Source of the DNA: a virus
Direction: 5' to 3' (one strand)
Length of the DNA stretch: 64,000 nucleotides
Virus record (IMG/VR): IMGVR_UViG_3300025634_000001
Span: 41,738 to 105,737 of that record
Shown: positions 28,370 through 48,323 of the stretch, in pieces
Position numbering within the stretch: position 1 is the stretch's first letter
Layout of the letters: each line of letters begins with the position of its first letter
Position numbers and translations under genes: made by a program
The notes under the pieces: model-generated
Database searches by the model: none
Told to the model about the DNA's origin: nothing
The model's input: only the letters and a program-made list of their open reading frames with translations

Positions 28370-29773
28370 TTGGCCAGCATTGTCATCTCAGCCAGTACCA
28401 CGTGGACCGCCCCCAGCAACATCTCCGGCGCACCCGAGGTCCAGGCCTGGGGTGAGAGCGGGACCGGCGGGACCAGCCTCAACGGCTCCCATTCCGGCGG
28501 GTCCAGCGGCTCGGGTGCCTACGCGGCGGAACCTGCTCTCGGCGGGGTGACCGCCGGGACCGTCCTGACGATCACCATCGGCACGGGCGGCAGCAGCACG
28601 GCCACGACCGTTACCGGCGGTTCGGTCGCGGTGACCGCGGCCTACGGCGGGAGCGCGTCGGGGTCCATCGCCGGGTCGGGCGGTGCGGCGGGTTCCAACA
28701 CTGTCGCCACGGCGGGCACGGGCGGCGAGAACGGCACCACGGGAAGCTCGAAGGGCGGCGGGGGCGGCCCCGGGTCGCCGGGGGCTTCCGGTTCCGGCGG
28801 CGCGGGCAGCCTCGGCGGGACGACCGGCGGGTCCGGCGGTACGGCGGGGTCCGGCGGCGGCGCAGCAGGCGGCGCGGGCGGCGGCCCCACATCCTCCGGG
28901 AACAGCGGCGGAACCCCCGGCGCGGGGTCCGGCGGCGGCGGGAACACCGGGAGCCGGCCCGGCGGGGCCGGCGTGCCCGGCCAGGTCATCATCACGTGGA
29001 CCGCTGTCAGCGGCTACCCGGCCGAGGACTACGCGGCGGGGTACGGGAAAGCGTCCGGCCTCAAGAAGGCCGCCGGGACTGTCAAGGGCTACGCGGCCGG
29101 GACCGGCACTGCGTCGGGTGCCAAGCATGCGTCCGGCACGGCGGCGGGCTACGCGGCGGGCACAGCGGTCATCAACCCGCCTCCGTCGTCGTCGTCCAGC
29201 GGCTACGGGTACGGGACCGGCACCGCTACCGGGATAGCGCACCGCAAGGGCACCGCGAAGGACTACGGGGCCGGGTACGGGCTCCTGACTGGCGCCGCGT
29301 TCAACCCCGGCGTCGTCAACGCGTGGGCTGACAGCTTCGCGCAGCCGTCTGCGTTCGGGCCGATGCCGCCCGCGTTGCAGTCCGTCAACGTGCCGCTGAC
29401 CGCCGCGTACAGCATCACCGGGGGGACCGGCGTCCCGTCGGAGGGTAACTGGCTGTTCTGCCTCGCCGGCTGGAACCAGGACGACGGGCTGCCCGCCCTC
29501 ACCGTCGGGGTAGCCGATGACATCCACAGCTACTGGCGACCCCAGTCCCCGTCCGTCTCGACGGGTAACACGCGGGCTGTGACCTGGTACACCGCGAACC
29601 TGGCGAGAATCCCCACGGTCGTCTACGTCGCGCCGAACGGGGCCTACGCGGGGATCGCGGTCATGGTCGTGGAAGTCGCCAACCTCGGCCCCTGGGACAC
29701 CGTGACGGGCTACGAGACGAACTACGCGGCCGGGGCCACATCCCTGCCGCTGACGCTCCCGGCACCCACCTAG
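28370..29773 (+). CDS. glycine-rich tail protein, 467 aa
   Basis: TTG start. Residues 1-90 are a beta domain (TTWTAPSNISGAPEVQAWGE), 95-210 are extremely Gly/Ser/Ala-rich, like polyglycine-helix adhesins, 215-310 contain repeats of GYAAGTGTASG type, and the C-terminal 150 residues form a globular beta domain (NWLFCLAGWNQDDG, VMVVEVANLGPWD). Location among tail genes suggests a receptor-contacting tail-tip component. No enzyme motif seen. Confidence 0.6.
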   Translation: MASIVISASTTWTAPSNISGAPEVQAWGESGTGGTSLNGSHSGGSSGSGAYAAEPALGGVTAGTVLTITIGTGGSSTATTVTGGSVAVTAAYGGSASGSIAGSGGAAGSNTVATAGTGGENGTTGSSKGGGGGPGSPGASGSGGAGSLGGTTGGSGGTAGSGGGAAGGAGGGPTSSGNSGGTPGAGSGGGGNTGSRPGGAGVPGQVIITWTAVSGYPAEDYAAGYGKASGLKKAAGTVKGYAAGTGTASGAKHASGTAAGYAAGTAVINPPPSSSSSGYGYGTGTATGIAHRKGTAKDYGAGYGLLTGAAFNPGVVNAWADSFAQPSAFGPMPPALQSVNVPLTAAYSITGGTGVPSEGNWLFCLAGWNQDDGLPALTVGVADDIHSYWRPQSPSVSTGNTRAVTWYTANLARIPTVVYVAPNGAYAGIAVMVVEVANLGPWDTVTGYETNYAAGATSLPLTLPAPT

Positions 29774-29818
29774 GCCCGGCAGTCACCAGGCGCCTTACGC
29801 ACTGAGGGGGAGGCGTCC

Positions 29819-31951
29819 GTGGCTACCGAGGTCTTCGCCAACGACCCGTCTACGACGATCAGCAGCGGCGGCACCACAGCACCCGCCAGCGGCACCACGG
29901 AAACCTGGACGGGCGCGTCCTGGGCGTCGTTCCCGGTCGCGGCCACGGGCGCGACCCAGTTCCACGTTTACGACACCGCCGCCGGGTACGGCAGCGAGCT
30001 GATCCTGGTCAGGAACATCTCCGGCACGACGGCGAGCGTCACCAGGGGCGCGGAGGGCACCACCCCGGTAGCCCACGTGACCGGGTTCACGGTCACCCAG
30101 CCGATCACGGCGGGGTTCCTGGGGAACCTGGTCCAGTGCGCCAGCATCGTCTCCTTCGGCGCGGACCCCACCGGGGCGGCCGACTCCACCGCCGCGATCC
30201 AGGCGGCATGGGAGAACGGCCTCCCCGTCTACGCGCCGGCCGGGAATTACCTCGTCGGCACGGGCGGCGTGTCCCTCATCTGGCAGCCGGGCCTGGTGTT
30301 CTTCGGCCCCTATGCGGGCACCTTTCCGGGCCTGGACACGATCCCCGGCATCGCCTACCTGCACCGGGTGGCCAGCACCAATGCGGACGTGATCCAGGTC
30401 CCGGACGGCACGAACTACGGCCGGATGTCCGACATCGCGATCGACGGGAACAAGACCCACAACACCGCCGGGTACGGGATCAACCTCCAGGACGGCGCCG
30501 CCCTCCAGGAAACGGAGATCCACTTCACCCGGTGCTTCATCCACGACAACCCGTACTCGAATTTCTACCTCGGCAACTTCCGGCTCGCGAACCGGCTGCG
30601 GGACTGCACGATCATGTACTCCGCGACGGGGGACGGTATCACCGTCGCGGGCACGGACAACATGATCTCCGGCAACATCATCGGCGACAACGGCCGGTGC
30701 GGCATCGCGGTCGGCACCACGATCTCCCAGAATTACGCCGCCTCGGGCACCGCGTGGGATCCGGCCGACACCCAGATCTACGGGAACAACATCTTCAAGA
30801 ACGACACCGGGATCGCCATCTCCAGTGGCGTGGACAACACGGTCCTGGCGATGAACATCATCAACCTGAATAACAGGCAGGGGATCACGGTCTACGACCA
30901 GACCTGCAACACGATCCACGCGAACATGCTCCACGGCAACAGCCAGGCCACGAACAACGGCTACGCCCACATCGACGTAGGGGCGTCCGTCACCGGGGTC
31001 TCCATCTCGGACAACATGTTCGGCGCGCCGGACGCCGGGACCACCAACGTCGCGTCGTGGTGCGTGAATGTCGGGTCCGGGGCGAGCCCGGGCACGATCA
31101 GCGGGAACCTCGGCACGATGAACGCCACGTCGTCCGTGAACGGGCTGATCAACCAGGCGGGCAGCAACGCCTCCCCGTCGATCATCTTCCCGTCGATGAT
31201 CGTCAAGGCGACGAGCTCATCGCAGAAAGTCTTCCAGCTGGAAAGCACGACGGGCTCTGTGCTGTTCAGCCTGACCAACGGCGGGTCATTCACGCTCCCG
31301 AACGGCGCCGGCCAGTTCGAGACCGCGCAGAACGTCTTCGGGTCCGCGACCGCGCTGGCCAGCGCGGTCGTGTCCCTCGTCGGCACGGCCACGGGGACGG
31401 CGCAGCTGAAGACGCAGCTGTTCGCCGGGCAGACCGCCGACATCGCCGACTTCTACGCCTCCAACGGGTCCACGCTGCTCGCCAAGATCACCGCAGCCGG
31501 GGTGTACGTCGGCCCGCAGGCGGCCTCAGTGAGCTACACCCCGTCCAACCCGACGGCGACGGCCAGCGGCACCCTGGTCATGATGGGACTCGGGACCACC
31601 TGCACCTTCACCCCGGGCGCGACCGGAATCGTGATGGCCACGGTGAACGGGTTCTGGAATACGGCCACGGCGTCAATTAACGGCACCCTGTCGGCGCGCT
31701 ACGGGACCGGGACCGCGCCCGCGAACGCCGCCGCCGTCACGGGCACCCGGTGGGGCACCGGCACGAGCGACCCGTCGATCAACGCGGCCCGCTCCCAGTC
31801 CGGCGCGGTCCCGTTCTCGTTCACCCAGGTCATCACCGGCCTGACGGTCGCCACCGCCTACTGGTTCGACCTGGCCACGAGCACGAGCAACCCGTCGGAC
31901 TCGGCCACCGTCACGAACGTGACGATGAGCTTCACGGAACTGCCCGCCTGA
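29819..31951 (+). CDS. tailspike-like protein with right-handed beta-helix (pectate-lyase-like), 710 aa
   Basis: After a 100-residue N-terminal particle-binding-like region, VSFGADPTGAADSTAAIQAA marks the start of a pectate-lyase/tailspike beta-helix, which continues with regular coils (MISGNIIGDNGRCGIAV, IYGNNIFKNDTGIAISSG, SISDNMFGAPDAG). The C-terminal 250 residues are a beta-rich trimer-like head. Such proteins bind or degrade surface polysaccharide. GTG start after GGGGGAGG. Catalytic residues could not be fixed by eye. Confidence 0.75.
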   Translation: MATEVFANDPSTTISSGGTTAPASGTTETWTGASWASFPVAATGATQFHVYDTAAGYGSELILVRNISGTTASVTRGAEGTTPVAHVTGFTVTQPITAGFLGNLVQCASIVSFGADPTGAADSTAAIQAAWENGLPVYAPAGNYLVGTGGVSLIWQPGLVFFGPYAGTFPGLDTIPGIAYLHRVASTNADVIQVPDGTNYGRMSDIAIDGNKTHNTAGYGINLQDGAALQETEIHFTRCFIHDNPYSNFYLGNFRLANRLRDCTIMYSATGDGITVAGTDNMISGNIIGDNGRCGIAVGTTISQNYAASGTAWDPADTQIYGNNIFKNDTGIAISSGVDNTVLAMNIINLNNRQGITVYDQTCNTIHANMLHGNSQATNNGYAHIDVGASVTGVSISDNMFGAPDAGTTNVASWCVNVGSGASPGTISGNLGTMNATSSVNGLINQAGSNASPSIIFPSMIVKATSSSQKVFQLESTTGSVLFSLTNGGSFTLPNGAGQFETAQNVFGSATALASAVVSLVGTATGTAQLKTQLFAGQTADIADFYASNGSTLLAKITAAGVYVGPQAASVSYTPSNPTATASGTLVMMGLGTTCTFTPGATGIVMATVNGFWNTATASINGTLSARYGTGTAPANAAAVTGTRWGTGTSDPSINAARSQSGAVPFSFTQVITGLTVATAYWFDLATSTSNPSDSATVTNVTMSFTELPA

Positions 31952-31978: not shown

Positions 31979-34957
31979 ATGAACGCCTCCGCGGTCCCCG
32001 GCCGCGCTGTCCCCGGCCTGGCCGTCCCCGGCTACCACGGAGGGGCGCCCGTGGCTGTCAACGCGTTCACGATCGCGTTCACCTGCGGCGACAACACCAG
32101 CGCCACGCAGGCGTTCGCCCCGGCCGGCTGGACGACGCTCCCGGCCGTCACCGCCAGCAATGGTGTAGACCACTCGTGCGATGTGGTCCTGACCGCCGCG
32201 TGGACCGTCACCTCATCCGCCGTCTCCGTCACCGGCACCGCGGGGACAGCAGAAGACCTCTCCGGGGCCATCATCGGCGTCCAGGTCGACGCACCCAGCC
32301 CCATCCCCGCCGTGTCCGGGGTATCACCGGGATGGGCCGGGCGGACCATCCTGCAGGCCGCGCTCGGGTCCGGCTTCCAGACCCCCGCCGACGAGATGAC
32401 CTGGACCACCCTCTCCGACTCCGCAGCCGCACCGGGAAGCATCAAGCGGCTCTGGTCATGGTCGGAGACCAGCACCGGCATCCCGTACGCTCTCGGGCAG
32501 CTCCAGTCTTCCGAGGGCACCGTCGAGATCGACAACGCCGACGGGGAAGTCACCCCCTCCAACGCCGCCAGCGCCTACTTCCCCGACGTCACCACCGGCA
32601 CCCCTTTGCGGATGCTGTTCGCGCTCGGCACCTACGGCGGGGTTCCGGTCGACCGCTGGTACTGCTGGCAGCGGAACGCCCTGGACTGGACCGAGAAACG
32701 CGACGAGTCGCTCCGCAACTACGTCGAGACCGGCCTCACCGACGGCTGGTCCGTCGTCGGCGCGTCCTGCCCCACCCCGTACCGGGGGGAAGTCCTCCAG
32801 GACGGCCCGTACGCGTGGTGGCCGATGGACGACCAGCCGCTCTCCGGCGGGGTCCTCCCGACTGCGCTGCTCAACGCCGCGCCGGGGAACAGCAGCACCC
32901 TCAACGTCCTCGCCAACTCGGTCACCGCAGGCGACCAGTACTCCACCACGGGCACCGACCTGACCACCGACGGGACCGTCCTCACCGGCATCCCCGCCGG
33001 GAACCCGCCCCCCAGCGTGGCCGTCTACGGCGCCGGCACGAACCCGGGCTGGATGTACGGCGACCCCCAGTCCTCCCCGAGCTCGTACAGCACCGGCAAC
33101 CCCGTCACGTCCAGCCCCGGGTCCGCCGCATGGCAGCAGACCGGCCTCCTCGGCAACACCGGGGCCAACGGCTGGTTCCTCGCCGCCAACGACACCGGTT
33201 TCCCGCCGCTGTCCGGCGGGATGACGTTCGGGCTGTGGTTCAACGCCACGTTCTTCGGCACCGCGACCGGGTTCACCGACACGGGCAACTCCACGTTCAA
33301 CGTCGCCGGGCAGCCCTACGGCCAGATCACCCTCGCCACCCTCGCGACCGCATCGAACGCCGTCGCGATCCTCTACCTCGACATCAGCGGTCACCTGATC
33401 CTGGAGACGTTCGCCGGGTCAACGGGGACCACGCACTCCATCTACAGTTCATCGGACCTGCGCTCATCCTCGTTCCACTCGGTGAAGATCGCCCTGACCA
33501 CGACCACGTGGACGGTGTACGTCGACGGCGGCCAGACCGCCCTCGTGTCCGGCACCGCGGCGGGCATGACCAGCGCGTGGACGTGGCTGATCCTCGGCGC
33601 CGACTGCGGCACCGCAGGCGGCTCGAGCCTGGGCAGCGCCGTCCACATGAGCAACATCGCCCTGTCCCACGCCGAGGTGTACCCGGGACTGCTCCCCGCA
33701 TGGCGGGAACTCAGCCACTACGCTGCGGCGACAACCGGGTTCGGTACCATCCCCGCACCCCAGTCCGTCGCCGTCAGCACGGTCGGGAACCAGCTCGCCG
33801 GGGTGGGGTATGTCCCCGATGGAAGCGAGTTCCGGGGGTCCTACGGAAGCAGCGGCAGCGCCGCCACCGCGTTCGGGTTCTCCGCCCTGGTCACCGCCGG
33901 GATCGGCTCGTACAGCAGCGGACCCTCGGCACGGTCCACCATCGCCGCGATCGGCGGCAATACCGGCGGGACGATCGTCGGGAAAGCCTCGTGGGTGTCG
34001 TGGACGTCGCTGGCCCCCCAGTCCGTCGTCTACACGGCGGCGTCCGCGAACGCGGAGACCAGTGCGGGGACCGCGGACGGGTCCGGGCTGGCGTTCACCG
34101 CCGGGTACGGCGGGTCGGCTACGGCGGCGGGAGTGTGCAAGACAGGCGGCGGAGCCGGGGCGTCGCCGCCTACAGGGCCTGACGCGCTCGGGGACACGGT
34201 AGCGAACCGGCTAGAGCGGATCCTTTCGTACGGCGGGGTGACCTCGCCCAACCGGGCCATCGACGCGACAGCCTCTGCGCTGGTCCAGGCGGCCCTCGAC
34301 GTGGGCGGCCAGCAGGCGGGCGCGAGTATCGCGTCGATCGTCAGCAGTGACTACGGGATGCTGTTCGTTGACAGCAACGGCACGACCTGCTACAAGAGCC
34401 GGCCTCACCTCAGCTCGGACACGGTGGTCTGGAACATCAGCTCGGCAGGCCCGGACTACGGCTACCCGTACAGCAAAGACCAGAACTTCGGAAATGATCC
34501 TCAGTTCGTCTATAACGTCATCCAGGTAAACCAGTACTCGCCCGACGGCGCGAGTTTGCCTGCTACCACGCCGGCTAACGCGAGCGCCGCGACAGCCTCT
34601 CAGTCGCAATACGGGCCGCGCCCGCTCAGCGTCGGGACCACGAGCTACCTGCAGAGCACGGCACTCATCCAGTCGGCTGTCAACTGGCTTCTCAGTACGT
34701 TCGGCGCGCTCGAGCGCAGGGTGCTGACCGCCACCGTCGACGCCGCCGGGTACCCGCCCGCATGGCCGTACGTTCTTTCCGTCCAGTGCGGAGATCTTCT
34801 CCAGATCACGGACCAGCCGATGCAGGGCGGCCCGCTCAGCGTCGGCACCTACCGCGTGAGCCTGATCAGCCGGAAGGTGGCGTTCGGGGCCAACGGGTCC
34901 AAGCCGACCGGGGCCGTGACGGTCACCTGCGATCCCGTTCCCGCCAGCTACTTCTGA
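31979..34957 (+). CDS. minor tail protein with LamG-like insertion, 992 aa
   Basis: Residues 120-270 contain phage hub-like sequence (WAGRTILQAALGSGF, SSEGTVEIDNADGEVTP, GTPLRMLFALG, DRWYCWQRNALDWTEKRDE). About residues 400-570 form a concanavalin/LamG-like domain (TFGLWFNATFFG, HSVKIALTTTTWTVYVDGGQ), followed by the family's C-terminal part (RLERILSYGGV, DYGMLFVDSNGTTCYKSRP). It resembles actinophage minor tail proteins after the tape measure. Probably a hub or baseplate component with a carbohydrate-binding insertion. Confidence 0.7.
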   Translation: MNASAVPGRAVPGLAVPGYHGGAPVAVNAFTIAFTCGDNTSATQAFAPAGWTTLPAVTASNGVDHSCDVVLTAAWTVTSSAVSVTGTAGTAEDLSGAIIGVQVDAPSPIPAVSGVSPGWAGRTILQAALGSGFQTPADEMTWTTLSDSAAAPGSIKRLWSWSETSTGIPYALGQLQSSEGTVEIDNADGEVTPSNAASAYFPDVTTGTPLRMLFALGTYGGVPVDRWYCWQRNALDWTEKRDESLRNYVETGLTDGWSVVGASCPTPYRGEVLQDGPYAWWPMDDQPLSGGVLPTALLNAAPGNSSTLNVLANSVTAGDQYSTTGTDLTTDGTVLTGIPAGNPPPSVAVYGAGTNPGWMYGDPQSSPSSYSTGNPVTSSPGSAAWQQTGLLGNTGANGWFLAANDTGFPPLSGGMTFGLWFNATFFGTATGFTDTGNSTFNVAGQPYGQITLATLATASNAVAILYLDISGHLILETFAGSTGTTHSIYSSSDLRSSSFHSVKIALTTTTWTVYVDGGQTALVSGTAAGMTSAWTWLILGADCGTAGGSSLGSAVHMSNIALSHAEVYPGLLPAWRELSHYAAATTGFGTIPAPQSVAVSTVGNQLAGVGYVPDGSEFRGSYGSSGSAATAFGFSALVTAGIGSYSSGPSARSTIAAIGGNTGGTIVGKASWVSWTSLAPQSVVYTAASANAETSAGTADGSGLAFTAGYGGSATAAGVCKTGGGAGASPPTGPDALGDTVANRLERILSYGGVTSPNRAIDATASALVQAALDVGGQQAGASIASIVSSDYGMLFVDSNGTTCYKSRPHLSSDTVVWNISSAGPDYGYPYSKDQNFGNDPQFVYNVIQVNQYSPDGASLPATTPANASAATASQSQYGPRPLSVGTTSYLQSTALIQSAVNWLLSTFGALERRVLTATVDAAGYPPAWPYVLSVQCGDLLQITDQPMQGGPLSVGTYRVSLISRKVAFGANGSKPTGAVTVTCDPVPASYF

Positions 34958-39001: not shown

Positions 39002-40246
39002 TCAGGCAGCTATCGCCTGACGGGCAAGCCCTGCCCGCAAGATGTTGATGGCCGCGTTCACGTCCGCGTGGGCCTCGTGGCCGCACGACAGGCACCGGAA
39101 AACGGCCTGGCTTGCACGGTTCCCCTTGGCGACGTGCCCGCACTGAGCGCATCGCTGCGAGGTGTTCTGGGGGTTTACTGCGACTACCGTCCGTCCGGCC
39201 CATTCTGCCTTGGCGGCGAGTATCCGCAGGAAGTTACCCCATCCCGCATCCTTGATGGATCTGTTCAGCCCAGCTTTGGCCGCCGCGCCGTTTGGCTCGA
39301 ACGTGCCGTCACCAACCGGCCGCGGTTTCGGTCGGCGGGTCATGTTCGCGATCTTCAATGCTTCATGCACGATCACGTCATGGTCACGGACGAGAGCCAG
39401 CGCGGTCTTATGGGCATGGTCGAGGCGCTGGCGGCGTGCCTTGCCGTACAGTGCCGCAACCCGCCGGGTGGCCTTGCGCCTGCGATTGCTTCCTAGTTTC
39501 TTGCGGGAGTGCTTCCGGTTGGCGGCGGCAAGACGTTCAGTGATGGCGGCATGCGGGCGCGGGTTCGGGACGTGCTTCCCGTCGCTGGTCGTCAGGAACG
39601 ACATCACGCCTAGGTCGATGCCGACGACCGCGCCAGTCGGCGCCAGTGCCTCAACCGGCACGTCATCGCAAGTCAGGATCACGTACCAGCGACCAAGCTC
39701 ACGTCTTACCGTGATCCTCTTGACGATGCCCCTGACCGGGCGGTGCTGGTGTACGCGGACGTGGCCGATGCCCTGAAGCTTCACGCGGGTCACGGTCGGA
39801 TGCGGGACAGAATCCCAGAGGCATGCATGGCCATTCTCCGGCCACTCGATGGAGTTCCACCGACCCCGCCCCTTGAAGCGAGGATGGCCGGGTACCTCGC
39901 CTGCCTTGACGCGACGGAAGAAGCCTAGGAACGCATCGTCAAGGCGACGGAGAGTTTCCTGCTCGCAACTGTAGGCCCACCGGGTGAACCGCTCCGGGGC
40001 GGCGGCACGGATCTCCTTCAGCTGTGCCGCCTGTGTGCTGTAGAAGATGCGGCGTTTCCCCATCCGCCATGCCTCAACGCGTTCCTCAAGCGCGGCGTTA
40101 TATAGCTCGCGGGTGTCCTCAAGGCACGCCTCGAACGCGGCTATCTGCTTAGCAGTCGGCCGCAGAAGGAACCTATAGTTGCGATACAACCTGCACCGGG
40201 TCTCAGTAGTCGGTGTGGGTTCAGGCCCGGTTCGGTGGTTGCACAT
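39002..40246 (-). mobile_element. tnpB: IS200/IS605-type TnpB RNA-guided nuclease, 414 aa
   Basis: The RuvC triad is present: D211 (VVGIDLGV), E295 (VIVHEALKI), D395 (AHADVNAA). A four-cysteine zinc finger (C366, C369, C385, C388: RCAQCGH, RCLSCGH) lies between the last two. The N-terminus (YRNYRFLLRPTAKQIAAFE) is the usual WED start. No TnpA transposase gene is nearby, so this is a stand-alone copy that moved with help in trans or was fixed. It separates two small helical-protein genes, antisense to the late region. Confidence 0.85.
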
Positions 40247-41557: not shown

Positions 41558-41998
41558 TCAGGCGACCTTGCTGAGCACCTCGCCGTGCAGCGCGAGCCCC
41601 GCTTTTGCGAGTGCCAGGCGGACCTCATCGACCTGCGGCCGGCTGAAACCCAGATCATCCAGGTCGAGAGCGGACAGGCCCTTCAGCTTGCCGACCGTAT
41701 TGAAGCCCGCGGTCTCCAGGCGCCGCTGGATGGTCACCGCCGGGCCGGTCCGGAAGGCAGGCCACAGGGACGTCAGGGACGCGTCGAGGGGATCGGGGGC
41801 GCCGGGGGCGGGTGTGCCGGCGAGGAGCGCGCGGACCTCGGCCTCCTTGTAACGTCGATGTCCCCCAAGTGTCCTTATTGTTGACAGTTTGCCCGCTTTA
41901 GCCCATCTTGTCACGGTCTTCGGATCAACTCTGAACATCTGGGCTACTTCGGACGGCGTGAGTAGATTGTCTGTTTCGATTGGCGTCCTGGCACTCAT
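41558..41998 (-). CDS. BldC-like DNA-binding protein with C-terminal alpha-CTD-like domain, 146 aa
   Basis: Residues 10-62 match BldC closely (LLTPSEVAQMFRVDPKTVTR, TLGGHRRYKEAEVRALL); BldC is a MerR-related winged-helix regulator of Streptomyces development that binds direct repeats. Residues 85-140 (LETAGFNTVGKLKGLSALDL, FSRPQVDEVRLALAKAGLAL) resemble the helix-hairpin-helix DNA-binding domain of the RNA polymerase alpha subunit C-terminus. The fusion is unusual. It may control its own gene and the flanking secreted-protein genes. ATG follows GGGAGGG. Confidence 0.7.
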   Translation of the reverse strand: MSARTPIETDNLLTPSEVAQMFRVDPKTVTRWAKAGKLSTIRTLGGHRRYKEAEVRALLAGTPAPGAPDPLDASLTSLWPAFRTGPAVTIQRRLETAGFNTVGKLKGLSALDLDDLGFSRPQVDEVRLALAKAGLALHGEVLSKVA

Positions 41999-42312: not shown

Positions 42313-43068
42313 TTAGCGCAGCACGCCGAAGTCGGCGCCCCAGAGCTGGTTGTCGTTCACCGTGCCCAGCTCAGGCACGAGGAAGGCACCCGTGAACCCG
42401 GTCAGGCTGTCGGTCTCCAGCTGCGGCCGGGGAGTGTTCGTCGGATACCCGTTCTTCGGGTAGTCCAGCACGAACGGGTGCGAGAACGTGGTGTCCGACC
42501 CGTTGATCAGCGGCACGTAGCCGTGGGTGATCGTAGTGTCGAGCGTGTCCACGACCCAGGCGGTCTTGCTCGTGTAACCACAGGGCTGAAGGGTCACCTT
42601 CGTGCCCTGCTGGGCGGTCGCCGCGACACCCGCGCACAGGCCGGACGCCACCCCGTACGGGGTGTACTCCAGCTCGAACGCCGGGTCATCCGGGTAGCCG
42701 TTCCCTGCGGCCGTGACGCCGGCCATCCCGATCCCGGAACCGTAATGCAGGTCGATCGCCGCGGACATGAGACCCGCGGCGAAGAAGTCCGACGTGGTGC
42801 CGTTGAACTCGGCGCTGAAGTCCTCAGCCGGGTCGGTGTCCGACGTGCGGAACAGGATGACCGGCTGGCCGACCTTCGCAGCCTGCTGGAACACGTCGAG
42901 AACGAACGCCGGCGTGTGGTGGGTGCCGAACTCGCGGCTGAACACGTCAGCGCACGTAGACCCGCACGACGGGGTGGCAGCACTGGCGGACATCACGCCC
43001 ACCGCGCCGACACCGCCGACGAGGGTCAGCGTGGCCGCTGCGGCGAAAACCTTGCTCTTGACAGACAA
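42313..43068 (-). CDS. secreted protein, 251 aa
   Basis: The TTG at 43068 was chosen because AGAGGA lies 6 bases before it and it leads directly into a signal peptide (SKVFAAAATLTLVGGVGAVG, cleavage after SASA). The mature part has cysteine pairs (PSCGSTCADVFS; GLCAG with LQPCGYTS) and resembles secreted actinobacterial proteins with lectin-like ends (KVTLQPCG, NQLWGADFGVL). Probably a cargo gene altering the host surface or surroundings during lysogeny; inferred. Confidence 0.65.
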   Translation of the reverse strand: MSVKSKVFAAAATLTLVGGVGAVGVMSASAATPSCGSTCADVFSREFGTHHTPAFVLDVFQQAAKVGQPVILFRTSDTDPAEDFSAEFNGTTSDFFAAGLMSAAIDLHYGSGIGMAGVTAAGNGYPDDPAFELEYTPYGVASGLCAGVAATAQQGTKVTLQPCGYTSKTAWVVDTLDTTITHGYVPLINGSDTTFSHPFVLDYPKNGYPTNTPRPQLETDSLTGFTGAFLVPELGTVNDNQLWGADFGVLR

Positions 43069-43167
43069 TTCGATTCCTCTGTTTGGACTCCAGCCTCGCC
43101 CTGCGCGCGGCTGGCCCTGCGATTCCCCGGTCATTACCCGGACCGGGACGGGGGTCTATGGGGGCGG

Positions 43168-44193
43168 CTAGCCCATCTCGAACGCCAGCACCGTCTGCTC
43201 GGGCTGCTCAGACTCCAGGATGGCCAGGTTCTTCACGGCCTGCCGGTAATAGCTGGCCTTCAGTTCCGCGCCGGCGGCCTTGCGGCCCAGCTCGACCGCC
43301 GCGTAGGCCTCAGATCCGACGCCGAGAAACGGAGTGAACACCGTCTCGCCAGGATTGGTCCGCATGTCCACGAACCGGCGCGACACGTCGAGCTGCAGCG
43401 GGTGGACGTGCTTCTCGTCCTCCTCGTCGCGGGCCTCCCGGTACGGCAGGACCGCCATGTGACTGCGGTCATCGTACTGACCCAGGTTGCCGCGGACGTC
43501 ATCCCACACCGACCCGGCATACTGCCGCCACACCCACTGCGAATACCGGTTCTCCAGCTGGCTCCCCGACCACCCCCGGTACTTCATCACGTCGGCGGGC
43601 GGGACGCTGGCGCCATGGTAGGCAGTGAACCCGTTCGGGTGCGTCACCGGGACGGGATTCTTCCCCTTCTTGCGGAAGATCAGGAGCCAGTCCGCGCCGG
43701 CGATACCCGCGAACGTGGCGTCATCCACGATCGTCTTGTGAGTGAGATCCTTGACCATCGTCCGGTTCCGGACCGCCAGCGGCTCCTTCCAGATGGCGTG
43801 ACGGCCCAGGTACTCGAACCCGTGCCGCTGATGCAGGCGGATCACGTCACCGGGGAAGTCGACCAGGGCGTCACCGCCGGAGTTCCCCGACGGGGTGTCC
43901 ATGCAGTGGACGGCGTTCAGCCGGCCCGGCATCGTCAGCCGGTGAAGCTCGGCGACGAAATAGCCGTACATCTCGAAGAACTCCGTGTACCCGCCGGCAT
44001 TGGACAGGTCCCGCTCACTGGAGGAGTACTTGTACAGGCCCGCCCCCCCGGCGCCCTCGTCGCCGTAGGCGAACGGCGGGGAGTAAACCACGCCGTGCAT
44101 GCACCCGTCCGGGTAGGCGGCCATGACCTCCATGCTGTCGCCGTTGTGGATGGCGTACCGGTCGGTGATGACCTGTGCTGCTACCTGACCCAT
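43168..44193 (-). CDS. DNA methyltransferase (beta-class, N4-cytosine or N6-adenine), 341 aa
   Basis: Catalytic motif IV is VVYSPPFAY near residue 38, and the SAM-binding motif I (FLGVGSEAYAAVELGRKAAG) lies near residue 300, the order of beta-class enzymes. SPPF/Y suits exocyclic amino methylation of cytosine or adenine. No restriction endonuclease gene is adjacent, so it is probably an orphan phage methylase. ATG after GGAGGT; it overlaps the helicase stop by 13 bases. Confidence 0.8.
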   Translation of the reverse strand: MGQVAAQVITDRYAIHNGDSMEVMAAYPDGCMHGVVYSPPFAYGDEGAGGAGLYKYSSSERDLSNAGGYTEFFEMYGYFVAELHRLTMPGRLNAVHCMDTPSGNSGGDALVDFPGDVIRLHQRHGFEYLGRHAIWKEPLAVRNRTMVKDLTHKTIVDDATFAGIAGADWLLIFRKKGKNPVPVTHPNGFTAYHGASVPPADVMKYRGWSGSQLENRYSQWVWRQYAGSVWDDVRGNLGQYDDRSHMAVLPYREARDEEDEKHVHPLQLDVSRRFVDMRTNPGETVFTPFLGVGSEAYAAVELGRKAAGAELKASYYRQAVKNLAILESEQPEQTVLAFEMG

Positions 44194-45557
44194 GAGGGGA
44201 CCTCCGTGTCCTTGGCGTAGGTGGCGCTGCGGTCGACAGCCAGCGCGTTGTTCATGTGGGCGGTCAGGGAACTGAACATCCGGTCCGCCTTGACGGCCTT
44301 GCGTTCCAGGCTGGCGAGGACCCGTTCCCCGCCCGTGGTCGTGACGACATCCACGATCACCGGATGCTGCTGCCCGAACCGCCAGCAGCGGCGCACCGCC
44401 TGGTAGTAGGCCTCGAACGAATGGTCCACGAAGTACGTCATGCGGTGGCAGTTCTGGTAGTTCAGGCCCCACGACGCGATCCGGGGTTTCGTGACCAGGA
44501 CCCGGATCTCCCCGCGGCCGAACGCGCCGAGCTTCTCCTCTTTCGCTTCCACCGGATCGGACCCGGTCACCTGGACCGCGCCGGGGATCAGCTTCGTGAG
44601 CAGGTCGCCCTCGTCGTTCAGGTGGCACCAGGCGATGCCGGGCGCGGCGTCCGAAAGCAGGTCCGCGGCCTTCTCGCACCGCTCCGTGATGGTGCGCCGT
44701 GACTCTTCCCGCTCCTCGTGCAGCCCGACGGCAGGCACGTCGAACAGGGTGCCCTCTTTCACCGTCCGCGCCTCCACGACATTGCAGCGGGTCTCCAGCG
44801 GCGGCAGGATGAACCCGTCATCTGCGAACCCGAGATCGGACGGCTTGCGCATCGCCCTGGCCCACGACGACACCCACCGCCAGAACAGTTCCTCGGCGTG
44901 GCCCTTGAACCGCCATTCCTCCCCGGCCCGCGGGCGCCACTTCCCGCCCATCGTCTTGCTGGTCTTCTCCTTGTTCGTGAAGAACCGGCCGAGCATGTCC
45001 ATGTGACCCAGGTACCCGAGGGCCTCACTGGAGGTCCCCAGCTCCGTGTGATCGTTCGGGGAGGGCGTGGCCGTGGCCAGCAGCCGGTACGGCACGGTCC
45101 GCATGAACTCGTTCACCATCGCCCGCCGCACCGAATCGTACGACTTCAGTGCCGAGCTCTCGTCGCAGATCACGCCGCCGAACTTGTCCCGGTCGAAATG
45201 CTCGAGCCGCTCGTAGTTGGTGACGGTGATGGGGGCCGGGATCTTGCCGTCCCGCGAGATGGCCGCGTCTATCCCGAACTTGGCGGCCTCGGTCACCATC
45301 TGGTCGGTGACGCCCAGCCGGGTCAGCAGCAGGACGGGCTTGCCGGCGTGCTTGTGCACGTTCTGCCCCCAGACCAGCGACATCGGGGTCTTCCCGCCCC
45401 CGCAGTCCACGAACAGCGCGCCGCGGCCCTGCCGGATCGACCACTCCGTGAGCATCCGCTGGAACCCGAACAGGAAGTCCGGCGTCCACAGCGGCTCGAA
45501 CCCGGCCGAGCTACCCAGCTGCGCCTTGCGTGCGAGCAGTTCCGCGTAGGTGCCCAT
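44181..45557 (-). CDS. SNF2-type superfamily II helicase, 458 aa
   Basis: Walker A is DCGGGKTPMS (about residue 52), the DEAD-box equivalent is VICDESSALKS, motif III TATPSPND, and motif VI QAVRRCWRFGQQ, the SNF2 pattern. The ATG at 45557 shares one base with the preceding stop (TGATG). Phage helicases of this type often sit next to a DNA methylase and may act in DNA modification, replication or counter-defence. Confidence 0.8.
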   Translation of the reverse strand: MGTYAELLARKAQLGSSAGFEPLWTPDFLFGFQRMLTEWSIRQGRGALFVDCGGGKTPMSLVWGQNVHKHAGKPVLLLTRLGVTDQMVTEAAKFGIDAAISRDGKIPAPITVTNYERLEHFDRDKFGGVICDESSALKSYDSVRRAMVNEFMRTVPYRLLATATPSPNDHTELGTSSEALGYLGHMDMLGRFFTNKEKTSKTMGGKWRPRAGEEWRFKGHAEELFWRWVSSWARAMRKPSDLGFADDGFILPPLETRCNVVEARTVKEGTLFDVPAVGLHEEREESRRTITERCEKAADLLSDAAPGIAWCHLNDEGDLLTKLIPGAVQVTGSDPVEAKEEKLGAFGRGEIRVLVTKPRIASWGLNYQNCHRMTYFVDHSFEAYYQAVRRCWRFGQQHPVIVDVVTTTGGERVLASLERKAVKADRMFSSLTAHMNNALAVDRSATYAKDTEVPSWVR

Positions 45558-45973
45558 CAGCAGGCCCCCAGGTCTCTCGCAGCGGCTTCCGTGCGGTGAT
45601 CCCACGCTTCCTGGTCGTGCACTGGTGCGGCGGCAGGCAAGCCGGGACCGTGGACCGCGCAGTCAGTGACCGGGCTCGTGTCGGTGCCGGGGATCTCGCG
45701 GCCCAGGTAGCAGGTGCAGTGCGGCTGCCCTTCCAGGATCGCCAGAGCCACCGCAGCGACCTGGACAAGCTCCGTCCTCAGTGCTTCCGGGTCACCGTCG
45801 AGGGCGGCGCGGGCGACTTCCCCGCACTCCTCGGTGAGTACCGCGACCTTGACCATGAGGGGGACGGCGGCACTTGAGCAGTCACCCTGCCCGTGGGCGT
45901 GCGGTGCGGCCCAGAGCTGCGCCTGGCGGTCCCGCTCGGCGCTGATCGCGGCCAGGGCGTCGGCGCGGGTCAC
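45557..45973 (-). CDS. MazG-like nucleotide pyrophosphohydrolase, 138 aa
   Basis: The helical core VLTEECGEVARAALDGD (EExxE) and LRTELVQVAAVALAILEG (ExxD-like) match the MazG fold, which hydrolyses nucleoside triphosphates or alarmones. A cysteine-containing C-terminal tail follows (HCTCYLGREI). The GTG start overlaps the antitoxin stop (GTGA) and the stop overlaps the helicase start, so translation is coupled on both sides. Confidence 0.65.
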   Translation of the reverse strand: MTRADALAAISAERDRQAQLWAAPHAHGQGDCSSAAVPLMVKVAVLTEECGEVARAALDGDPEALRTELVQVAAVALAILEGQPHCTCYLGREIPGTDTSPVTDCAVHGPGLPAAAPVHDQEAWDHRTEAAARDLGAC

Positions 45974-46158
45974 TGCGCTGCCTCGTGTGCGGGCAGTTCG
46001 GCCGCGGCGGCAACTTCGGGTGGCGCGGTGATCATCGCGACCACGCGGCCCCGGCTGGTGACGTAGGTGATCCGACCCCGGATGGCGTCGTTGATCACAT
46101 CGGCTAGGTGCTCGCGAACGTCGCGGATGCTCCGCTCGCACGGTTCGGTGGTAGTCAT
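45970..46158 (-). CDS. Phd/YefM-like antitoxin, 62 aa
   Basis: The N-terminal pattern SIRDVREHLADVINDAIRGR, then ITYVTSRGRVVAMI, is the Phd/YefM DNA-binding fold. No RelE/Doc toxin follows; instead the coupled next gene is MazG-like. The protein may act as an operon repressor. The ATG begins 6 bases after a -10-like box (TACGCT, 46165-46170), so the mRNA may be leaderless. Confidence 0.7.
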   Translation of the reverse strand: MTTTEPCERSIRDVREHLADVINDAIRGRITYVTSRGRVVAMITAPPEVAAAAELPAHEAAQ

Positions 46159-46164
46159 GACGCT

Positions 46165-46192
46165 AGCGTACACAAGTAGTGGCGGGTGCACA
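46165..46192 (-). promoter_or_regulatory. promoter of the antitoxin-MazG-helicase-methylase operon
   Basis: Minus strand: TGTGCA (46187-46192), 16-base spacer, TACGCT (46165-46170), then 6 bases to the ATG. The short distance implies a leaderless transcript. Confidence 0.45.
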
Positions 46193-46215
46193 CTGGTGAC
46201 ACGCCGGAAAGTTTC

Positions 46216-46458
46216 TCACGCCGCCGCGCCCGGATTCACGCGGGAGCCGGGCATCGGCCTCGGGTCGGCGCCGGCCGCCTGCTGGGCTTCCTGCTGGCGC
46301 TTCTCCCAGGCGATGACGTCGGCTAGCTTGTAGAGGGTCCTGCGCCCGAACCGTGTCCCGGACGGGCCGTAGCCGCGGTGCTTCCAGTAGCGGACCGTGG
46401 ACGGGACAGTCCGCAGGCGGTCGGCTAGCTCGGCGGTGGTCAGCCACTGGTCGTCCAC
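46216..46458 (-). CDS. excisionase-like helix-turn-helix protein, 80 aa
   Basis: WLTTAELADRLRTVPSTVRY followed by GPSGTRFGRRTLYKLADVIA is the MerR/AlpA-type winged helix of excisionases and small regulators. GTG at 46458 has GAGGA upstream. It is divergent from the repressor-integrase pair across the palindromic control region, the usual place for Xis. Confidence 0.7.
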   Translation of the reverse strand: MDDQWLTTAELADRLRTVPSTVRYWKHRGYGPSGTRFGRRTLYKLADVIAWEKRQQEAQQAAGADPRPMPGSRVNPGAAA

Positions 46459-46490
46459 GGAAATCCTCACAGGGAATACGTACCGGAACC

Positions 46491-46575
46491 CGTCACGGGG
46501 ATGATGACGACAGGTTCGCATATCCGTTGGCTATATGCAACCTGTACCGGGATGCGGTTTAATATCCCCGTGACG
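46491..46575. promoter_or_regulatory. lysogeny-switch control region with nested palindromes
   Basis: Outer inverted repeat CGTCACGGGGAT (46491-46502) / ATCCCCGTGACG (46564-46575). Inner inverted repeat AGGTTCGCATAT (46512-46523) / ATATGCAACCT (46533-46543). A -10-like TTTAAT (46558-46563) ends 6 bases before the repressor GTG. The outer arm covers the repressor start codon. Confidence 0.6.
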
Positions 46576-47100
46576 AATCAACGCCAGCCAACGGTAACCC
46601 CTGAATCCGGGGACTCCCCCGGCATGCGGGACGAGTACGCCGGCGAACCGGAACGCGTCCTCGCCGCCCGGGTCCGCGAGATCCGGGAGAAGCTCGGCAT
46701 GACCCAGGCCGAAGTCGCCAGGGGAATGACCGCGCAGGGGCTCGCCATGCTGCAGAGCACCATCGCCAAGATAGAGGCCTGCCAGCGGCCCGTACGCCTC
46801 AACGAGGCCGTCCGCCTCGCCGCCGTGCTCCGCACCCAGCTGGACGACCTCATGACCGACCCCCGCCAGCGGGACATGCAGGACGCCCTCGCCGCAGCGA
46901 GGGACGAGGAACGGGAGCTGCTCGGGCAGCTTCTCCAGGCAACCCACCGGCTCGAGCAGCGCCGCGCCGCGCTCGACGCCGCCGGGCATGCCGTGCGCGA
47001 GTCGGCCGCCCAGGTCGAGGAACTGCAAGACCTGTACGCGCAAGCCCAGTACACGACCGGGATGCTGATCGCAGCCGGCGACGAGAGGAACGAACCGTGA
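46570..47100 (+). CDS. XRE-family repressor, 176 aa
   Basis: Helix-turn-helix at about residues 30-70 (REIREKLGMTQAEVARGMTA, QSTIAKIEACQRPVRL), followed by a long coiled coil (EERELLGQLLQATHRLEQRR) probably for dimerisation. The GTG at 46570 begins 6 bases after TTTAAT and has no ribosome site, which suggests a leaderless mRNA as for many actinobacterial repressors. It overlaps the integrase gene, so the lysogeny genes are expressed together. Confidence 0.75.
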   Translation: MTNQRQPTVTPESGDSPGMRDEYAGEPERVLAARVREIREKLGMTQAEVARGMTAQGLAMLQSTIAKIEACQRPVRLNEAVRLAAVLRTQLDDLMTDPRQRDMQDALAAARDEERELLGQLLQATHRLEQRRAALDAAGHAVRESAAQVEELQDLYAQAQYTTGMLIAAGDERNEP

Positions 47101-48323
47101 GCCATGTCGAGGACCGGTGGTTCACCACCGTCAAGGACGAGAACGGCAAGGCCGGCAAGGAACGCAGCGCACGGCACGGCAACGGCCGGCGCTGGCGGGC
47201 CCGGTACGAGGACCCGGACGGGCGGGAGCGGAACCGCAGCTTCGCCACGAAGGTGATGGCCGAGAACTTCCTCACCGAGGTCGAGCACTCCAAGCTCGCC
47301 GGTTCCTACCGTGATCCCGACGCCGGGAGGGTGAGCCTGCGGAAGTACGCGGAGGGGTGGGTGGATGCCTATCATGCCGACTCCGCCCGCGGCGAGCAGA
47401 TCCGCCGGCAGCTCCGGCTCCACATCCTGCCGGGCCTCGGCGCTCACCCCCTGGCTCAGCTCAGCCAGCGGCCGAGCATCATCGGGAAATTCTTGCAGGG
47501 GCTGCCCATGACGCCGGCAGGGCAGAGCCAGGTCCGCATCACCCTGTCCAGCCTTCTCGGCACGGCACTGGAGGACGGCCTGATCGCCCGGAATCCGTGC
47601 GAGGCCAAGGTGGCGAAGATCCAGCTCCCGCCGAGGCGCAAGCTCATCCCGTGGACATCCGCCCAGATCTCCGAGCTCCGCGCCGGGCTGCCCGAGCAGT
47701 GGCGGGCCGTGGCCGACTGCGGGTCAGGGCTCGGGCTGCGGCAGGGGGAGATATTCGGCCTGGCTGAAGATGCTGCCGGGCTGCTGAAGCGGCGAGCGCG
47801 GATCGTGCGGCAGGTAACGCGGATCAACGGGCGCCTGTGGTTCTCGCTGCCGAAGGGAGATAAGGAGCGGGACGTGCCGCTGCCCGAGTGGGTCAGGTTC
47901 GCGCTGGCCGCCCACATGGAGCGCTTCCCTCCCGTGGAGGTGACGCTGCCGTGGAATGACCCCAAGAACCTGAAGCGGCACGGGAAGCCGGTTACCGTCG
48001 CGCTGCTGTTCACTAAGAACGGCGGCCCGATGATGCACTCGACGTTCAACACGATGGCGTGGCGGCCGGCCCGGAACGCGGCGGGCATGACCGAGGGCGG
48101 GCTGCATCAGCTGCGCCACTTCTACGCCTCGACTCTTCTCGCCGGAGGGGTTGACATCAAGGCAGTGTCGGAGTATCTGGGCCACCATGACGCGTCGGTG
48201 ACGCTGAGGGTTTACGCGCACCTGATGCCGGTGGCCGAGGGGCGTGCCCTGAGGGCGATCGAGGCCGCTTTTGAGGCCGATGACGGCCCCGTGACGGCCC
48301 CTGAGGCAGAAAGTGGCCCCTGA
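47097..48323 (+). CDS. int: tyrosine-type integrase, 408 aa
   Basis: Catalyses site-specific integration. Catalytic residues: Arg in GLGLRQGEIFGL (about residue 213), HxLRH in HQLRHFYAS (about 337), His in LGHHD, and the nucleophile Tyr in RVYAHLM (about 373). An N-terminal arm-binding region (RWRARYEDPDG) and a SAM-like core-binding domain precede it. GTG overlaps the repressor stop (GTGA). Confidence 0.9.
   Translation: MSHVEDRWFTTVKDENGKAGKERSARHGNGRRWRARYEDPDGRERNRSFATKVMAENFLTEVEHSKLAGSYRDPDAGRVSLRKYAEGWVDAYHADSARGEQIRRQLRLHILPGLGAHPLAQLSQRPSIIGKFLQGLPMTPAGQSQVRITLSSLLGTALEDGLIARNPCEAKVAKIQLPPRRKLIPWTSAQISELRAGLPEQWRAVADCGSGLGLRQGEIFGLAEDAAGLLKRRARIVRQVTRINGRLWFSLPKGDKERDVPLPEWVRFALAAHMERFPPVEVTLPWNDPKNLKRHGKPVTVALLFTKNGGPMMHSTFNTMAWRPARNAAGMTEGGLHQLRHFYASTLLAGGVDIKAVSEYLGHHDASVTLRVYAHLMPVAEGRALRAIEAAFEADDGPVTAPEAESGP

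Follow-up and report, generated by a model that had tools for sequence, protein, structure and literature searches.

A helicase-methylase gene pair shared by phages of very different bacteria lies in a local four-gene operon of a 105.7-kb phage contig

The DNA studied here is a window of 64,000 nucleotides, corresponding to bases 41738-105737 of the 105,737-base virus record IMGVR_UViG_3300025634_000001, a 105.7-kb phage contig. Four minus-strand genes follow one another in it with successive overlaps, from position 43168 to 46158 of the window. Two of them, encoding a DNA helicase and a DNA methylase, constitute an inseparable pair, the main subject of this text, which occurs in hundreds of phages whose bacterial hosts differ widely. 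The genes, and the overlap between the last two to be read, are the following:

43168-44193, minus strand: beta-class DNA methyltransferase (methylase), ATG start, 341 amino acids (aa)
44181-44193, minus strand: overlap of 13 bases between the end of the helicase gene and the start of the methylase gene
44181-45557, minus strand: superfamily 2 (SF2)/SNF2-type ATPase ('DNA helicase'), ATG start, 458 aa
45557-45973, minus strand: MazG-like protein, similar to nucleoside triphosphate pyrophosphohydrolases, GTG start, 138 aa
45970-46158, minus strand: Phd/YefM-like small DNA-binding protein, ATG start, 62 aa

The Phd-like and MazG-like genes overlap by 4 bases (GTGA), and the MazG-like and helicase genes by 1 base (TGATG). 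The four genes and their three overlaps had been described in a previous sequence-only reading of this DNA, and all of them are present as described. The start codon of the helicase agrees with the alignment to its homologues, and the 13-base overlap may couple the translation of the two enzymes.

The sequence-only reading took the four genes as one unit and suggested that a conserved co-occurrence of the four families should be sought. To this end, 250 loci were searched with profiles; they come from 158 viral contigs, 12 phage records and 80 genome contigs and are not all independent, since a few contigs recur between searches. The methylase is directly downstream of the helicase (less than 700 bases away, on the same strand) in 243 loci, 231 of which show an overlap or a gap of less than 60 bases; in five others it is 786-881 bases downstream, and the two loci in which it is missing both have a contig end within 60 bases. 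The co-occurrence was therefore confirmed for helicase and methylase (248 of 250 loci), but the four-gene set does not recur, and the four-gene operon was rejected as a conserved unit because only the pair is found repeatedly. When viral contigs were searched with the helicase alone, 80 loci were obtained. Together with three phage records and the record to which the window belongs, this makes 84 listed loci, and in all of them the methylase adjoins the helicase on the same strand. The two proteins, each queried alone by tblastn against 50,697 phage records, matched 310 and 312 records, with per-host tallies for the two queries of 146/146 in Mycobacterium, 85/85 in Flavobacterium, 27/27 in Arthrobacter and 22/22 in Pseudomonas.

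The pairwise distances among helicases and among methylases are correlated (r=0.86 over 222 loci, against a maximum of 0.15 in 500 shuffled permutations), which indicates that the pair has been inherited together. Fused genes, always with the helicase first, have been found in the methanogen-virus contig vir525, in three genome contigs and in Mycobacterium phage Sarma624, the methylase part of the latter being confirmed by hhalign (E 2.7e-31); 'DNA helicase/methylase' is also the name that appears on Arthrobacter phage records. Taking into account the near-unbroken linkage, the correlated divergence and the repeated fusion, the two enzymes can be considered as one machine. Some variants of the pair were seen in passing. 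In Mycobacterium phage Guppsters (gp68-gp69, L083:7293-8764) the helicase is intact and the methylase is shorter, its C-terminal family similarity having been lost, perhaps through a frameshift or a split gene, and the helicase of a Helicobacter prophage (L092:4719-6413) is extended at its N terminus by about 90 residues that resemble a helix-turn-helix (HTH) domain.

With respect to the enzymes themselves, the family names given to both in the sequence-only reading hold. The methylase matches PF01555 above its cut-off (E 2.3e-14), as well as phrog_67, and has motif IV (SPPF) close to its N terminus and motif I (TPFLGVGSE) towards the C terminus. Residues D19, S38, P40, F41, P288, F289, G291 and G293 are invariant in 95 methylase relatives, and P39 is kept in more than 90% of them. 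The nearest solved folds to its model, whose predicted local distance difference test score (pLDDT) is 86, are those of the beta-class enzymes TTHA0409, CcrM and M.PvuII. The helicase matches phrog_62 (E 9.5e-48) and phrog_16 (1.2e-29); in Pfam, ResIII is above the cut-off (4e-5), and SNF2-rel and Helicase_C are below theirs. It keeps the motifs D-x-G-x-GK, DESS, ATxxPND and RR-R-GQ. Among 83 helicases, D51, G53, G55, DESS, A163-T164, P167-N168-D169 and, in motif VI, R390, R393, G395 and Q396 are invariant, and the Walker-A lysine is kept in more than 90%. Its model (pLDDT 85) is nearest to Chd1, Isw1, Mot1 and Rad54, all SNF2-type remodellers. Both enzymes look catalytically active from their sequences. 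No nuclease domain was found in either of them with Pfam, PADLOC and NCBIfam or, for the helicase, by fold comparison, in agreement with the sequence-only reading, which had seen no nuclease.

The middle region of the methylase (residues 126-248) is the expected place of target recognition. A hypervariable region was sought there as a sign of diversifying specificity, but its mean pairwise identity is 0.62, compared with 0.63 and 0.70 in the catalytic parts, and that of the inner stretch 176-222 is 0.57. The middle region is thus not hypervariable, suggesting, although not proving, a shared target. As a rule, an SPPF motif points to N4-cytosine rather than N6-adenine, and N4-cytosine is the more likely target base of this methylase, to judge from its sequence.

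The MazG and Phd/YefM names given to the other two proteins have to be considered tentative, since both score below the curated Pfam cut-offs: 17 bits against 22 for PF03819 in the first case (with phrog_2831 at 1.9e-13), and 22 bits against 29.8 for PF02604 (E 1.4e-4) in the second. The MazG-like protein keeps an EExxE motif (EECGE); at the ExxD position its sequence is ELVQ, and most close relatives have this Q as well. Searches with this protein gave no match by tblastn against the phage records, nothing meaningful among the sequences of solved structures, and nine loci in viral contigs. Of about 250 loci, only 14 have a MazG homologue close to the pair, at a position that varies (between, after or before the two genes), the pair occurring elsewhere without it, and a Phd-like gene is near the pair only in this phage. 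Thus, the pair forms the unit, and the operon of four genes is a local arrangement in which the MazG-like and Phd-like genes are passengers added in this phage lineage. A possible role of the MazG-like protein is the adjustment of nucleotide pools.

No toxin family was detected with Pfam among the genes adjoining the Phd-like gene (an excisionase-like HTH gene and the MazG-like gene), as the sequence-only reading had already noticed; since a cognate toxin gene is lacking there and the Phd match is below the cut-off, a type II toxin-antitoxin system was rejected. Two sites similar to TGTACACTAG precede the Phd-like gene of the window, and TGTACACTAG-like repeats are also found just upstream of its relatives in other phage contigs. 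The Phd-like protein is probably a small autoregulator of the operon. The loci in which such repeats were seen in the upstream regions are L103 and L105-L115. In L108 (2965-3654) a GIY-YIG gene comes after the Phd-like relative, and GIY-YIG-like and Phd-like sequences share one frame in L116 (2761-3171), an arrangement that is possibly a small nuclease-plus-regulator module. A second Phd/YefM domain of this phage, above the cut-off, lies outside the window (L283:653-910, record bases 29652-29909) in a small protein with an HNH_3 match.

In other phages, the neighbours of the pair include replication initiators, primase, DnaB, SSB, sliding clamp, Rad52/Erf, RusA and RecE, and a second DNA methylase is often close to it. 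In 12 bacterial isolate genomes, the 123 neighbour proteins match phage methylase families, repressors, DNA polymerase processivity factor, primase, DnaB, RecE, RusA and integrase, that is, they are the products of prophage-type genes. The phage under study has a C5-cytosine methylase as well, whose gene lies next to a ParB-like gene and the terminase. This second DNA-modification locus is outside the window (L283:4308-5910, record bases 33307-34909), where the ParB-like gene overlaps the methylase gene just upstream of the terminase.

The pair is an instance of a kind of system that has already been described. Methylase-helicase dyads of phages and mobile elements were reported by Iyer et al. 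2017, with the anti-restriction protein DarB of P1 as the archetype, and these authors note that the coupling of SNF2 ATPases to adenine methylases is widespread in phages (PMC5512222). The window pair shares with DarB-type dyads a SWI2/SNF2-type ATPase and a DNA methyltransferase, fused or neighbouring, in phages and without a nuclease; the anti-restriction effect proposed for those dyads would take place by translocation-coupled methylation (PMC5512222). However, the methylases of the DarB type belong to the gamma class, being EcoKI/TaqI-like N6-adenine enzymes placed N-terminal to the helicase, whereas that of the window is beta-class, with SPPF before motif I, and is located downstream of (or, in fusions, C-terminal to) the helicase. 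Moreover, DarB is a large multidomain protein with an LPD36 domain, delivered with the DNA as a virion protein, while the window pair consists of separate early-region proteins of 458 and 341 aa in which no further domain was found, LPD36 not having been searched by name. Their early-region location argues against virion proteins injected with the DNA. The pair, with an SNF2-type ATPase whose motifs are intact, a methylase that is fused or a conserved neighbour, and a location on phages and mobile elements, is for these reasons a member of the dyads in the broad sense and not a DarB.

Closer counterparts exist among annotated phages. The actinophage proteins called 'DNA helicase/methylase' in Girr (gp64), Sarma624 (gp65) and Arthrobacter phage Richie (gp78), and the separate pairs of Zucker (gp71-72) and prophiFSQJ01-1 (gp21-22), are homologous over both enzymes, with the same gene order and early region; they differ in their 30-40% helicase identity, in being fused in some cases, in the lack of a Phd-like gene and in the HNH genes adjoining them in mycobacteriophages. 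The closest annotated relatives are those of the cyanophage Synechococcus phage S-H1 (AZB50546-AZB50545), with 54.5% identity for the helicase and 56.2% for the methylase, whose genes overlap and have a further methylase nearby, and no MazG or Phd-like gene is annotated upstream of them.

Taking all this together, the pair is on balance probably a methylase complex driven by ATP, whose function would be anti-restriction through the marking of phage DNA at an early stage of infection. From what was observed or computed (gene structure, intact motifs, model folds, invariant pairing, correlated divergence, fusions and early-region context) we infer a physical complex, motor-driven methylation, the target base and the anti-restriction role. 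Helicase and methylase would assemble into a two-enzyme complex after translation of the overlapping genes, and the SNF2-type double-strand DNA translocase would move along, or remodel, the phage DNA, allowing the methylase to reach its target. The methylase, bound to the ATPase, would in this way mark sites through the newly replicated genome, and the mark would keep the restriction enzymes of the host from cutting the phage DNA and, later, the packaged DNA. This would be a counter-defence by self-modification in the early, or replication, phase. A more specific version, in which a motor-coupled methyltransferase of separate origin from DarB, beta-class and probably N4-cytosine-directed, acts on one conserved or very relaxed target across phages of several bacterial phyla, is put forward tentatively and seems rather less probable.

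Several points weigh against a role in anti-restriction. For this beta-class branch, no activity, modification or restriction phenotype was found in the literature consulted. There is no sign that the two proteins are packaged, unlike P1 DarB, and the first incoming genome would consequently be unprotected unless they are made very early. The evasion of many restriction systems might favour a varied specificity, and the methylase middle region is not hypervariable. The replication-gene context fits a role in replication as well. Finally, overexpression of the fused Girr gp64 in M. smegmatis led to mild growth inhibition or toxicity (PMC11075535), an effect that agrees with DNA modification without demonstrating protection. 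This is the one weak phenotype found for a pair present in at least 300 sequenced phages and more than 590 matching stretches of viral contigs.

Other explanations have been considered. The pair could be a replication or recombination accessory, the SNF2 ATPase remodelling stalled forks or stripping host proteins and the methylase placing marks that time replication, repair or packaging, with protection from restriction as a secondary effect. Speaking for this are the many phages in which genes for primase, DnaB, SSB, sliding clamp, RecE, RusA and Rad52 surround it, the conserved methylase middle region, as would be expected for a fixed regulatory target, and the action of SNF2 proteins such as Rad54 in recombination. 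However, early regions also carry counter-defence genes, so the context is not decisive; a pair found in about 310 of 50,697 phage records is not a core replication factor, and the archetype DarB is an anti-restriction protein (PMC5512222). An accessory role of this type is regarded as possible but doubtful. It is very improbable that the pair is what is left of a type III-like restriction-modification system, with a Mod methylase and a Res helicase, after the loss of its nuclease. The ResIII match of the helicase and the low-ranking matches of the methylase model to the type III Mod subunits Mbo45V and EcoP15I point in that direction, and type III systems also combine a beta-class methylase with an SF2 ATPase. 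But these have larger proteins, a nuclease domain in Res and the order mod-res, none of which is present in the window pair; no nuclease-bearing member appeared among the relatives examined, the SNF2-like helicase, nearest to Chd1, Isw1 and Rad54, leans outside type III Res, and the motifs are intact over widely diverged phages, unlike a pattern of decay. A complete type III system was rejected, given that the Res-type nuclease domain is absent by all the searches used.

The sequence-only reading had proposed a defence or counter-defence unit. Counter-defence fits the pair, in view of the P1 DarB precedent (PMC5512222) and the lack of a nuclease, but there is no support for a defence system proper: PADLOC gave no system, only a generic type II methylase and weak helicase C-terminal matches, and elsewhere the pair is found among replication, recombination and methylase genes. 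DISARM also has an SNF2 helicase (DrmD) and a methylase (DrmMI) in one locus, and the C-terminal lobe of the window helicase weakly matches DrmD (14 bits). Nevertheless, it is a host defence locus with DrmA, DrmB and DrmC, whereas the window pair is phage-borne without these, and this identity was rejected. So was MADS, because only the excisionase-like HTH protein matches mad1 (E 1.5e-7), which was taken as a generic HTH_17 similarity, no MADS match being among those listed for the other five proteins scanned. A superinfection-exclusion operon of four genes, expressed in the prophage, in which the methylase would mark self DNA while helicase and MazG-like protein act on intruders, is very improbable. 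It would agree with four overlapping co-directional genes adjoining the lysogeny region, and DISARM and BREX also join methylases with helicase-like ATPases; nonetheless, the pair alone is conserved, there is neither a nuclease or other effector nor a PADLOC system match, and the neighbours of the pair in bacterial isolate genomes are of prophage type.

The location beside the lysogeny region, claimed in the sequence-only reading, is borne out by the genes upstream of the operon:

46159-46215, minus strand: 57-base gap between the Phd-like and excisionase-like genes, candidate promoter/operator of the operon, holding CCAGTGTGCAC and TTGTGTACGCTAGCG
46216-46473, minus strand (that of the operon): excisionase/MerR-like HTH gene (PF12728 4e-8, phrog_66 1.3e-9)
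46491-46575: divergent control region, in which 46491-46502 and 46564-46575 form a perfect inverted repeat of 12 bases
46552-47100, plus strand: XRE-type repressor, divergent (PF01381 6e-7, phrog_3 3e-8)
47097-48323, plus strand: tyrosine integrase, overlapping the repressor gene (PF00589 2.2e-14, phrog_1 1.2e-44)

The 12-base inverted repeat is a candidate repressor operator. A promoter scan gave no sigma-70 consensus, and one terminator-like site which is not above chance. The operon is on the strand opposite to repressor and integrase, and an early lytic operon fits this arrangement at least as well as expression in the prophage.

On the other side of the operon, directly downstream of the methylase, a gene at 42313-43134 (minus strand) encodes a probable secreted protein with a signal-peptide-like start and a weak ricin-type lectin match below the cut-off. 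Further on, at 41558-41998 (minus strand), a BldC-family HTH domain, above the NCBIfam cut-off, is joined to an unexplained C-terminal part, and an IS605-type TnpB (OrfB, with a Cas12f1-like TNB domain) lies at 39002-40246 (minus strand), close to where the block of structural genes ends.

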